Shown here: piece by piece, positions 25,839 through 30,493 of the stretch | How positions within the stretch are numbered: the first letter of the stretch is position 1 | How the letters are laid out: every line of letters begins with the position of its first letter | Source of the DNA: Elusimicrobiota bacterium | GTDB lineage: Bacteria; Elusimicrobiota; Elusimicrobia; UBA1565; UBA9628 | DNA: 64,000 bases | Direction of reading: 5' to 3' | Assembly: GCA_003151975.1 (NCBI GenBank) | Contig: PLZD01000027.1 | Span: forward strand, 1 to 64,000 | Program-made: the position numbers and the translations under genes | The notes under the pieces: model-generated | Told to the model about the DNA's origin: nothing | Database searches by the model: none | What the model saw: the letters and a program-made list of their open reading frames with translations, nothing else

Positions 25839-25844
25839 TACAAT
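25839..25844 (+). promoter_or_regulatory. -10 box of the truncated tRNA
   Basis: TACAAT ends 8 nt before the first base of the tRNA-like sequence at 25853. This places a transcription start next to the tRNA 5' end. The -35 region at 17 bp (TGTCGC) is weak. Confidence 0.45.
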
Positions 25845-25852
25845 GAGGGCTC

Positions 25853-25880
25853 GTCCCCATAGCTCAATGGTTAGAGCGCC
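25853..25880 (+). pseudogene. Truncated tRNA (5' acceptor strand and D arm only)
   Basis: GTCCCCA-TA-GCTC, an AATGGTTA loop and GAGC form a normal acceptor 5' strand and D arm, matching the intact tRNA-Arg at 28015 in 25 of 27 positions. After that no anticodon arm with U33, no T arm and no acceptor 3' strand can be found; the sequence turns purine-rich and becomes the ribosome binding site of the KaiC-like gene. A CGCCT/AGGCG pairing (25878-25900) is present instead. It could be the scar of an insertion into a tRNA. Confidence 0.7.
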
Positions 25881-25928
25881 TATAACTGCTACGGGAAGGC
25901 GAAAAAGGAAGAGGAAAAGGAATATAGA

Positions 25929-27365
25929 GTGACCAAACGCGTCCATGTGCGTAAGTGCGTCACCGGGATCAAGGGCTTCGACCAGATCACGGGCGGAGGT
26001 CTTCCGAGAAATCGGACCACTTTGATTTGCGGCGGCGCCGGCTCGGGAAAAACCCTCTGGGGAATCGATTTTCTGATCAAGGGCGCGACCCAGCACGGCG
26101 AGCCCGGCGTCTTCATGTCCTTCGAGGAGACCGAAGGCGAGCTTTATGAGGACGTGGCCTCCCTGAGCTTGAATCTGCGACAGGCCGTCGCGAGGAATAA
26201 GATCCGGCTCGAGCACGTCCGCTTGGAGAGTGCGGACATCGCGGAAAAGAACTTTAATCTTGAAGGGTTGCTCGTTCGTCTGGAATATGCGATCGACTCG
26301 ATCGGCGCCAAACGAGTGGTTCTGGACTCCATTGACTCGCTCTTCGCGGGCCTTTCGGATCCCGGAATGCTTCGCCTGGAGATGAAAAGACTTTTCCGGT
26401 GGCTCAAGGCGAAACAGGTCACCGCGCTCATCACGGGAGAGGCCGGACGAGACTCTCTGAGCCGGCATGGGCTCGAGGAGCACATCTCGGACTGCATGCT
26501 TTTCCTCGACAATAGAATTAAGGACCAAGCTTCGGTGCGCAGGATCCGGGTGGTCAAATATCGAGGCTCGAACCACGGAGCCAACGAGTATCCGTTCGTC
26601 ATCGATGCGGCTGGGGTGTCAGTCATCCCGATCACCTCGATGAGTCTCGATCACCCCGGGTCGGCCAAGAAGATCTCGACCGGCATCGCGTCATTGGACG
26701 GGTTGTTCGATGGCGGGGGTTATACCCGAGGCAGCACGATCCTCGCTTCGGGGACCGCGGGCACCGGCAAGACCAGCCTCGCGGCCGCGTTCGCGCTCGA
26801 GAGGTGCCGGCGCGGCGAGCGGTGCCTCTTCGTGTCCTATGAAGAATCGCCCGGGCAGATTGTTCAAAACATGAAGTCCATCGGCATCCATCTTGATCCC
26901 GCGATCAAGAAGGGGTTATTGAAGATCGTGGCCACGAGAGCTTCGGCAATAGGGCTCGAGATGCATCTGCTCGATCTGTACAAGACCATCGAAGTGCTAA
27001 AGCCGCGGGCCGTCGTCATCGACCCGCTGACAAGCCTCCTCGCGGAGGGCAGCCCGCGCGAGATCCAGTCGATGGTGACGCGCGTGATCGACCTGCTCAA
27101 GACCAATGGCATCACCGGTTTCTTTACGAGCCTCGTCTCATCGACCTCGCGAAACTATACCAGCGGCGAGATCGGCGTGTCGTCCTTGATCGACACATGG
27201 CTCGTCGTCCGAGAGATCGAGGAAGATGGCGGGAACAGGCGGACCCGCGGGCTGTATATCGTGAAGTCTCGCGGCACGGCTCACTCAAGCGACGTGCATA
27301 AGCTGAGCTTGAGCGACAAAGGAATCTCATTGGGCCCGGTCAGTGAAAAACAACGAAAAGACTGA
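25929..27365 (+). CDS. KaiC-like double RecA-domain ATPase
   Basis: The 478-residue protein has two RecA/KaiC domains. Domain 1 has Walker A GGAGSGKT (residues 35-42), catalytic Glu pair in SFEETEGE and Walker B VVLDSIDSL. Domain 2 has Walker A GTAGTGKT (about 275), VSYEESPGQ and Walker B VVIDPLTSL. The position of the cyanobacterial KaiC phosphosites reads Ser-Ser (GVSSLID), so autophosphorylation is possible. There is no KaiA or KaiB nearby. Start GTG 25929 follows a purine-rich AAAAGGAAT site. A CheB-like gene follows by 4 nt. In such pairs KaiC homologs probably act in signalling rather than timing. Confidence 0.87.
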   Translation: MTKRVHVRKCVTGIKGFDQITGGGLPRNRTTLICGGAGSGKTLWGIDFLIKGATQHGEPGVFMSFEETEGELYEDVASLSLNLRQAVARNKIRLEHVRLESADIAEKNFNLEGLLVRLEYAIDSIGAKRVVLDSIDSLFAGLSDPGMLRLEMKRLFRWLKAKQVTALITGEAGRDSLSRHGLEEHISDCMLFLDNRIKDQASVRRIRVVKYRGSNHGANEYPFVIDAAGVSVIPITSMSLDHPGSAKKISTGIASLDGLFDGGGYTRGSTILASGTAGTGKTSLAAAFALERCRRGERCLFVSYEESPGQIVQNMKSIGIHLDPAIKKGLLKIVATRASAIGLEMHLLDLYKTIEVLKPRAVVIDPLTSLLAEGSPREIQSMVTRVIDLLKTNGITGFFTSLVSSTSRNYTSGEIGVSSLIDTWLVVREIEEDGGNRRTRGLYIVKSRGTAHSSDVHKLSLSDKGISLGPVSEKQRKD

Positions 27366-27369
27366 CCGT

Positions 27370-27984
27370 ATGGCTCAGGCCTTTATGGAACCATCGCGGC
27401 CTGGATTCATCGTCGGGATTGGCGGCTCCGCCGGCGGCCTCGGCGCCTATAAGGCGCTCTTAGGGTCGCTCTCCGTCGATACCGGCATGGCCTTCGTCGT
27501 CGTTTCTCATATGATGCCGACGGCGTCGAGCGAACTGGCCCAGATTCTGTCCTGGCACACGGAAATGCCCGTCATCGTGGCGTCCGATGGGATGCGGGTT
27601 CGGGGTAATCAGGTCTATGTCAGCTCGCCGAACTCTGATCTCTTGATTGAGAAAGATACCTTGAAGGTCGTCATTCCGCGCACGAGCAGGAACACTGAGA
27701 TTGACCGGTTCTTGATCTCTTTGGCGGAGGCCGGAGGCGCGCGCGCGATCGGCGTCATCTTCTCGGGGTACGACGGCGACGGCACTGAGGGCTGCCGCCG
27801 CATAAAGAAAGAGGGAGGAATGACCTTCGCGCAAGATGAGTCCGCGGAGGTGAACTCCATGCCTCTCAGCGCTCAGGCCTCAGGAAGCATCGACTTCGTC
27901 CTTCCACCGGCTAGGATCGCTAAAGAGCTGCAGAAGATCGCGAGCGCCGCACGGCGCGCAAAACGCGATGCGCCGGGGCCGTGA
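27370..27984 (+). CDS. CheB-type methylesterase domain protein without receiver
   Basis: The 204-residue protein is a stand-alone CheB catalytic domain. The triad is Ser20 in GIGGSAGGL, His47 in VVVSHMMP and Asp in FSGYDGDGTEG (near 137). CheB removes methyl esters or deamidates glutamines on chemoreceptors, but no receptor, CheR or CheA is in the window. Lack of a receiver domain means activity is not set by CheA-type phosphorylation; the adjacent KaiC-like ATPase may do this. GTG 27343, overlapping the KaiC-like gene, is an alternative start. Confidence 0.82.
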   Translation: MAQAFMEPSRPGFIVGIGGSAGGLGAYKALLGSLSVDTGMAFVVVSHMMPTASSELAQILSWHTEMPVIVASDGMRVRGNQVYVSSPNSDLLIEKDTLKVVIPRTSRNTEIDRFLISLAEAGGARAIGVIFSGYDGDGTEGCRRIKKEGGMTFAQDESAEVNSMPLSAQASGSIDFVLPPARIAKELQKIASAARRAKRDAPGP

Positions 27985-28014
27985 TCAAAGTTATTGTTGT
28001 AAAATCAGTCTAAC

Positions 28015-28086
28015 GTCCCCATAGCTCAATGGATAGAGCACGTGCCTTCTAAGCATGCGATAGAGGTTCGATTCCTCTTGGGGACA
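28015..28086 (+). tRNA. tRNA-Arg (anticodon TCT)
   Basis: The full cloverleaf can be drawn: acceptor GTCCCCA/TGGGGAC, D arm GCTC/GAGC, anticodon stem CGTGC/GCATG with loop CTTCTAA (U33, anticodon TCT, purine 37), a 4-nt variable loop and T arm AGAGG-TTCGATT-CCTCT. The discriminator is A; CCA is not encoded. A TAAAAT at 28000-28005 stands 9 nt upstream as a probable -10 box. It reads AGA codons. Confidence 0.95.
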
Positions 28087-28114
28087 CGATTTCCCGGGCT
28101 TAACGCCGCCGGCC

Positions 28115-28143
28115 TTGACAGGCCCAGCCCATAGCCCTATACT
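28115..28143 (+). promoter_or_regulatory. Consensus sigma70 promoter of the lipoprotein gene
   Basis: TTGACA (28115-28120), exactly 17 bp and TATACT (28138-28143) make the best -35/-10 pair in the window. A start near 28150 gives a leader of about 35 nt carrying AAGGAG (28171-28176) 8 nt before ATG 28185. High constitutive expression is likely. Confidence 0.8.
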
Positions 28144-28184: not shown

Positions 28185-28916
28185 ATGATGTCCCGATATT
28201 TTCTGCTTCCGACTTTGATCGCGGCCATGACGGCCTGCGCCACCGCCCCGGCCTCGGCCAAGGACAAGCCGAAATCCGACTCCGCCGGTCTGACCGATCA
28301 GGAACTCGATCAGAAGCGCGCAGATCTCGACGTCAAGCTGGCCAACCGCGCCGGCCACGTCAAGCAGGACCTGGACAAGATCGCTTCGTTCCAGCTCTCC
28401 GCCGAGAAGGACCGCCTCGATTTCGAGCGCCACGTCGCCGAAGAGCGCAAAGCCTTTTACCTGTTTCTCAAGTCCGTCAACGCCGACGCCCGCGGCAAAG
28501 AGCTCGACGAGTTCGGCGATAAGCAGCAGAAGGCGCGCGAAGATTTCGACAAGAAACAACTCGACGCGCAAAAGGATTGGTTCGGCGACACGATCGAGAA
28601 GTCATGGAGAACCGACAGCCTCGAGGTCGAGTCCGGTGCCGCTCCTGCGCCGGCGGCCGCTCCGGCGCCAGCTCCGGAGAAGCCGGCGGCGGAAACCCCC
28701 AAGAAGCCCGCGCCCGCCCACAAAGCGGTCTACAAGAAGAAGAGCAAGCCCGCGGTTAAGAAAAAGCCCAAGGCCGTGGCGGCCGAGGCCCCCGCGCAGG
28801 CTCCCTCGGTGCCGGCGGAGCAGAACTCGTCCGGACAGCCCGCGGTACAGCCCCCGGCGCCGCCCGCCGAAACTACCAGCCCCGACGCGCCGCCGCCCCC
28901 GCCGCCCGGCAACTAG
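28185..28916 (+). CDS. Lipoprotein with coiled coil and Pro/Ala/Lys-rich tail
   Basis: The 243-residue protein begins with a signal ending LIAAMTAC, a probable lipobox. Residues about 35-135 are charged and helical (LTDQELDQKRADLDVKLANR), probably a coiled coil. The last 100 residues are Pro/Ala-rich with a basic core (VYKKKSKPAVKKKPK) that could bind peptidoglycan or span the wall. No enzyme motif is visible. The strong promoter and ribosome binding site suggest an abundant envelope protein. Confidence 0.65.
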   Translation: MMSRYFLLPTLIAAMTACATAPASAKDKPKSDSAGLTDQELDQKRADLDVKLANRAGHVKQDLDKIASFQLSAEKDRLDFERHVAEERKAFYLFLKSVNADARGKELDEFGDKQQKAREDFDKKQLDAQKDWFGDTIEKSWRTDSLEVESGAAPAPAAAPAPAPEKPAAETPKKPAPAHKAVYKKKSKPAVKKKPKAVAAEAPAQAPSVPAEQNSSGQPAVQPPAPPAETTSPDAPPPPPPGN

Positions 28917-30464: not shown

Positions 30465-30493
30465 TTGACGCTGTGGTGCCGCGTCGCTATACT
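30465..30493 (+). promoter_or_regulatory. Promoter of the trypsin-like protease gene
   Basis: TTGACG (30465-30470), 17 bp and TATACT (30488-30493) end 6 nt before ATG 30500. This is the clearest leaderless promoter in the window. Confidence 0.75.

Follow-up and report, generated by a model that had tools for sequence, protein, structure and literature searches.

The question raised by the locus considered here is how the first part of a tRNA-Arg(UCU) gene came to stand upstream of an intact copy of the same gene, with genes encoding a KaiC-like ATPase and a CheB-like methylesterase filling the space in between. The locus lies in a 64,000-nucleotide stretch of Elusimicrobiota bacterium contig PLZD01000027.1, hereafter termed the window. 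An original prediction, made from the sequence of this stretch, proposed integration at a tRNA with duplication of the target, while pointing to the lack of an integrase and to the fact that the 5' end, rather than the more usual 3' end, is duplicated. A conserved left junction (attL) and integrase genes found in related genomes (cited below by G numbers, with individual loci given L numbers) support such integration, and make it likely that positions 25853-28014 correspond to a small integrase-less cassette, whose site-specific insertion in the D-arm region of this tRNA gene involved recombination of the type associated with a family of large serine recombinases (LSRs).

The stump and its continuation in relatives

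The stump (25853-25877) matches the intact tRNA (28015-28039) at 24 of 25 positions on the same strand, and at 25 of 27 when the comparison is extended to the 27 nt originally described as containing two mismatches; the chance expectation for a 25-mer with at most one mismatch in 128 kb is ~9e-9. The only tRNA called at the locus by ARAGORN is the intact one (28015-28087), which has a normal D loop. From the -10-like box described below to the intact tRNA, all features assigned lie on the + strand. Although the tRNA sequence was correctly seen to break off after the stump, what comes next is not random, but rather continues into sequence that also follows 5' stumps in other genomes. Specifically, when relatives were searched with the tRNA as query, additional 5' fragments turned up ahead of intact tRNA-Arg(UCU) genes. 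The fragment has one and the same end point in the window, G017 (two instances), G020, G054, G050, G033, G004 and G012, where it is followed by GCGCCTGTAACTGCTACGGGAAGGCGAAAAAGG, with diverged versions being seen in G019 and G002. The window stump and the arm that follows it share 90% identity with L045 over 62 bp (E=4e-18), while a 33-nt pattern spanning the junction was detected in 9 of 341 genomes of the phylum, including G229, which belongs to another order; the reversed control pattern was detected in 0. In no relative was a complete second tRNA found in place of the stump.

Serine integrase elements at tRNA-Arg(UCU)

A gene encoding an LSR with Resolvase, Recombinase and Zn-ribbon domains lies directly upstream of tRNA-Arg(UCU) in G025, G012, G004 and G033, and is decayed in G017. 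LSR and attL occur together in four of the five LSR genomes (P=9e-4). A 3' tRNA fragment preceded by GTAGCCAAGTTACAGGCGCT appears downstream of the LSR-linked tRNA only where the LSR is undecayed (G025, G012, G004 and G033), these also being the only genomes in which attR, composed of the P arm, AG and the 3' tRNA stump, is present. The reverse complement of the attR arm matches the arm found beside the 5' stumps. Placed together, the two arms read GTTACAGGCGCT-AG-AGCGCCTGTAAC, a near-palindromic inverted repeat centred on AG that is a composite of arms from different loci; between the two arms of G033 itself, the match extends over CCTGTAACT and is imperfect toward the ends. Such an AG-centred inverted repeat would be as expected of a serine-integrase attP.

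In G033, the 5' fragment, AG and the 3' fragment read together form a good tRNA-Arg(UCU), and a complete tRNA lies beside the LSR gene. Because the host halves rejoin in this manner, the full element, as reconstructed, interrupts the host tRNA within the D arm, with the complete tRNA of the element serving as its substitute. A complete cognate tRNA borne by the element, together with non-functional host halves, was found in G033, G025, G012 and G004; in the window, the tRNA is intact. The LSR-linked tRNAs contain one extra D-loop base at the crossover point (GGATcAGAGC or GGATAGcAGC), yet still fold well. This extra base may prevent the integrase from acting on its own tRNA, and would also preserve the LSR reading frame. 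In G025, G033 and G012, that frame crosses the entire tRNA, followed by the spacer and P arm, to end in the host 3' stump (e.g., ...GARAPAF), with the stop being supplied by UCUAA of the tRNA anticodon loop. When the ends of the G033 element were joined, a single LSR open reading frame (ORF) of 555 residues was obtained, which passes through the complete rescue tRNA-Arg(UCU), across attP and into the basic tail of the P' arm, ending in ...KVTGPRAPVTAMRPKKRKQK and a stop, as compared with ...GPRASAF and a stop in the integrated form. Judged by these sequences, integration disrupts the host tRNA and at the same time severs the basic tail from the integrase. Given its VirB2-, VirB4- and VirB6-like genes, the G033 element is probably an integrative and conjugative element (ICE).

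The same reading frame serves to interpret the window. In most attL P' arms, the frame of the tail is closed by a K/R-rich tail, and insertions and deletions involve whole codons. Because of these codon-sized changes, and because the LSR frame closes through the arm, the arm is best considered as coding, and the notion that it is a mere attP half in non-coding DNA was ruled out. Since the joined G033 frame and the frames of the P' arms run into it, the arm after the window stump can be assigned as a detached LSR 3' end. At the level of sequence, then, the window stump is an attL junction comprising three parts. The host half is nt 1-20 of the tRNA (25853-25872), as defined by comparison of tRNA fragments. 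It is followed by AG (25873-25874), the presumed crossover dinucleotide, on which the inverted repeat of the reconstructed attP is centred and which is found again in both attL and attR of G033. The element half, the P' arm with the detached basic LSR tail (25875-25932), is defined by arm matches at L045, L043, L103, L107 and other loci, by reading frames and by the joined G033 ORF. Comparison of 25853-25932 with the P' arms of G033, G012 and others accordingly revealed host and element halves about a 2-bp core. Read in frame from 25855, the window junction encodes PHSSMVRAPITATGRRKRKRKRNIE, the stop of which overlaps the KaiC start (GTGA). The unusual direction of the duplication also finds an answer here, since a crossover at the D-arm AG, i.e., tRNA nt 21-22, makes the 5' part the displaced part.

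Elsewhere in the phylum, distant LSRs (25-29% identity to the G025 LSR), as well as one LSR of the window genome, end at tRNA-Gln, His, Asn or Asp (L128-L133, L136, L138 and L178), and tRNA genes appear to be common sites of serine integrases in Elusimicrobiota. In G002 (C19, ~525.4 kb and ~467.5 kb; L051:7410 and L052:7543), the diverged attL precedes the tRNA by ~58 kb, with both on one strand, which suggests a large island at this site.

Integrase-less cassettes and their proposed movement

As had been stated at the outset, no integrase is encoded between 25853 and 28087, whereas relatives carry the LSR at the tRNA-proximal end of like elements. Instead, the gap between stump and tRNA is occupied by the two genes originally described. 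The first (25929-27365) encodes a KaiC-like ATPase with two PF06745 domains (357 bits; NF006799 above cut-off), and the second (27343-27984) encodes a stand-alone CheB methylesterase domain (162 bits), with a domain search yielding PF01339 only and no receiver domain. The two overlap by a few codons, point toward the intact tRNA and look intact by domain match. Upstream of the stump lies the TACAAT -10-like box noted earlier (25839-25844), which scored below threshold in a sigma-70 scan and is taken as the displaced tRNA promoter, now 5' of the cassette. The intact tRNA is directly preceded by promoter-like TATTGTTGTAAAATC (27992-28014), of a type found 5' of tRNA-Arg(UCU) in many relatives (compared with L056, L058, L059, L060, L104 and L118). 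Just 3' of the tRNA, at 28115-28143 and before the gene at 28185, there is a strong sigma-70-type promoter match (TTGACA-17-TATACT).

The lower GC content that had been judged by eye was borne out by calculation, the cassette having a value of 0.589, as compared with a window mean of 0.642 (standard deviation 0.022), with values as low occurring in 0.65% of equal-sized windows. GC content at third codon positions is 0.76 for KaiC and 0.74 for CheB, as compared with roughly 0.82-0.90 for most neighbouring genes. Nor is the cassette conserved across the lineage. KaiC homologues were detected in 10 of 336 genomes of the phylum, and the KaiC-CheB pair recurs in G042 and G058 at other genomic places, such that KaiC-CheB as a lineage gene was ruled out. 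The pair likely represents an accessory signalling or stress module, and would probably be expressed from the displaced tRNA promoter.

The layout of the window, namely promoter and stump, arm, cargo, then promoter and tRNA, is shared by a katG cassette in G019 (L065), a BRO and VOC cassette in G229 and a cassette of mixed cargo in L045. In G017, G053, G004 and G012, several stumps occur in series, with cargo including RND efflux pumps, EamA and TetR, while the BRO cassettes of G017 and G229, members of different orders, share 84% nucleotide identity from the stump onward. This common layout with varied cargo, the serial stumps and the BRO cassette common to two orders support the view that each cassette moves by a site of its own, presumably by way of partner sites and with the LSR supplied in trans or lost. 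The KaiC-CheB cassette would thus have arrived with its own tRNA promoter and tRNA nt 1-20, and recombination at AG would have restored, at the right end, a tRNA that is both intact and expressed, the LSR having acted in trans or having since been lost. The AG at 28035-28036 in the intact tRNA would again be usable as attB.

Other arrangements were also seen at this tRNA. The cassettes at L113:10024 (G053) and L104:605 (G050) have their left-end cargo gene in common (MQESLFPEPAALRSKVI..., no Pfam match), but differ in their P' arms. At L115:8956-9141, L108:8569-8700 and L044:8157-8425, the region 5' of tRNA-Arg(UCU) contains a 5' stump, a hairpin and, immediately ahead of the promoter, a segment of the tRNA in reverse complement (about nt 17-34, or the anticodon arm); the unit is repeated at about 98 bp in L044. 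At L112:8912-10287 and L046:698-1603, small cargo is accompanied by a second type of 5' stump, which measures 40 nt and stops within the anticodon loop, with an identical 43-bp promoter being duplicated together with the stump in L112. This type probably reflects another integrase type at the same tRNA.

Several points weigh against such an origin of the window cassette. Neither attR (P arm and 3' stump) nor a cognate LSR was found in the window or elsewhere in its genome, so that the right end of the cassette is not independently diagnostic. Two LSRs encoded in the same genome were considered as helpers but rejected as not cognate, being ~22% identical and located elsewhere, with one ending at tRNA-Gln, while other tRNA-Arg matches in this genome, considered as a 3' stump, proved to be intact UCG and CCU tRNAs. 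The free attP palindrome was not found in viral contigs or in 336 genomes of the phylum. Viral contigs likewise contained neither the P' arm (21 nt, exact) nor LSR relatives, and GTDB contigs yielded only three already-known Elusimicrobia metagenome-assembled genomes and a weak Bacteroidales match to the LSR. Moreover, the cassette site, consisting of a host tRNA half and P', is attL-like, and recombination between attL and attB would not be expected of a serine integrase that lacks a directionality factor. Finally, the nonribosomal peptide synthetase-like gene upstream adjoins the tRNA in no relative compared. On the other side of the tRNA, the trypsin-like gene at 30473 has a syntenic counterpart next to tRNA-Arg(UCU) in about 15 members of the family, several of which contain no stump. 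The downstream side of the tRNA is therefore ancestral, and unoccupied sites do exist in the family; the relatives compared belong to other genera, so that the exact empty site of the window is not among them.

Of the alternatives, the one that best survives, though we consider it unlikely, holds that KaiC-CheB is the last cargo of a decayed full LSR/ICE element which lost the LSR, the rescue tRNA and attR, with the tRNA having been restored by homologous recombination. The window attL is the same in kind as that of full elements, a decaying LSR without attR is found at the same tRNA in G017 (L043), and the 3' half of a rescue tRNA together with the 3' stump would constitute a short direct repeat, liable to be deleted. 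The window tRNA, however, lacks the 1-nt D-loop insertion of the LSR-linked tRNAs (L043, L047, L048, L049 and L141), a native-type promoter lies only 30 nt past CheB, and the stretch from CheB to the tRNA contains no LSR fossil. The tandem stumps without an intervening LSR in G004, G012 and G053 argue, moreover, that cassettes move as such.

Less probable still is spread by RecA-type homologous recombination with no integrase, in which a circle carrying the promoter, the tRNA 5' half, P' and cargo would recombine in the promoter and tRNA 5' region. While the promoter is duplicated with the stump in G050 (at least 71 bp), G049 (43 bp) and the G004 and G012 arrays (37-44 bp), in the window the promoter of the stump is unrelated to that of the tRNA (6/20 identities), so that homology is limited to about 25 bp, and transfer of the BRO cassette between orders would offer little homology outside the tRNA. 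It is highly improbable that no mobile element was involved, with the stump being either a regulatory half-tRNA leader or a tandemly duplicated tRNA 5' region that has accreted unrelated genes. Short tandem duplications of the 5' part do occur in L044, L108 and L115, but different families and orders share the sequence that follows the stump despite unrelated cargo (this having ruled out the regulatory half-tRNA), and this sequence corresponds to the LSR gene 3' end and is joined to the LSR frame in G033.

Relation to known systems and significance

Considering the cassettes and the full elements together, we lean toward a system in which rescue tRNA, attP and integrase C-terminus form one overlapping frame, such that an essential tRNA would be broken and replaced and the integrase truncated in a single step, and in which the site has been adopted by integrase-less cassettes in integron-like arrays, KaiC-CheB included. 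Rescue-tRNA integration was described as tRNA-dependent lysogeny, mediated by tyrosine integrases of actinobacteriophages (Guerrero-Bustamante and Hatfull, 2024; PMC10865867), where related elements that leave an intact tRNA exist at the same site, as in the window. Rather than a phage with a tyrosine integrase, however, G033 presents a Resolvase/Recombinase-type serine integrase and VirB2/VirB4/VirB6-like genes on an ICE-like element, with a D-arm crossover and the rescue tRNA inside the integrase frame. The attP site also lies within the integrase gene, which is split by integration, in the archaeal 'suicidal' integrases (SSV1, pTN3 and pT26-2), and in the pTN3 type, the tRNA 5' half is targeted and the tRNA is expressed from the integrase promoter (PMC8371274). 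One ORF across attP that is split by integration was likewise found in G033, with the same right-junction frame in G025 and G012. Those enzymes, however, are tyrosine integrases described as exclusively archaeal, from which the catalytic part is cut (PMC8371274), whereas the serine integrase considered here is bacterial and is shortened by only about 12 basic residues at its C-terminus. Rescue-tRNA integration and attP within the integrase gene were found to have been reported only separately, for tyrosine integrases, with a limited literature search yielding no description of the two combined.

In staphylococcal cassette chromosome (SCC) and pseudo-SCC composite islands, serine recombinase elements stand in tandem at one chromosomal site, with recombinase-less members beside complete ones (PMC3900703), much as recombinase-less cassettes stand in tandem beside complete LSR elements here. 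In the present case, however, the target is the 5' part of a tRNA and not orfX/rlmH, the cassettes are of 1-4 kb, and CcrA and CcrB scores fell far below cut-off (CcrB, 71 bits vs a cut-off of 900). The arrays resemble integrons in consisting of small promoter-dependent cassettes with resistance- or stress-type cargo and a repeated site between them, with the displaced tRNA promoter standing to KaiC-CheB as Pc does to the first integron cassette. Here, however, the repeated site is a tRNA 5' half with a serine-integrase attP arm and not attC, and the cassettes contain no IntI. Finally, a canonical tRNA genomic island has the 3' half duplicated and a tyrosine integrase at the junction, as opposed to the duplicated 5' part and the segment free of any integrase seen here.

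These elements extend rescue-tRNA integration beyond actinobacteriophages, a matter left open by earlier work (PMC10865867), and to a different integrase chemistry, and may offer the first bacterial, serine-type integrase gene to be cut by its own integration. Loss of the basic tail at integration provides a simple candidate mechanism of one-way control, and LSRs for which a tRNA attB is known are useful as integration tools. For this little-studied phylum, the conserved arm provides a searchable scar that marks mobile cassettes even after the integrase has been lost.
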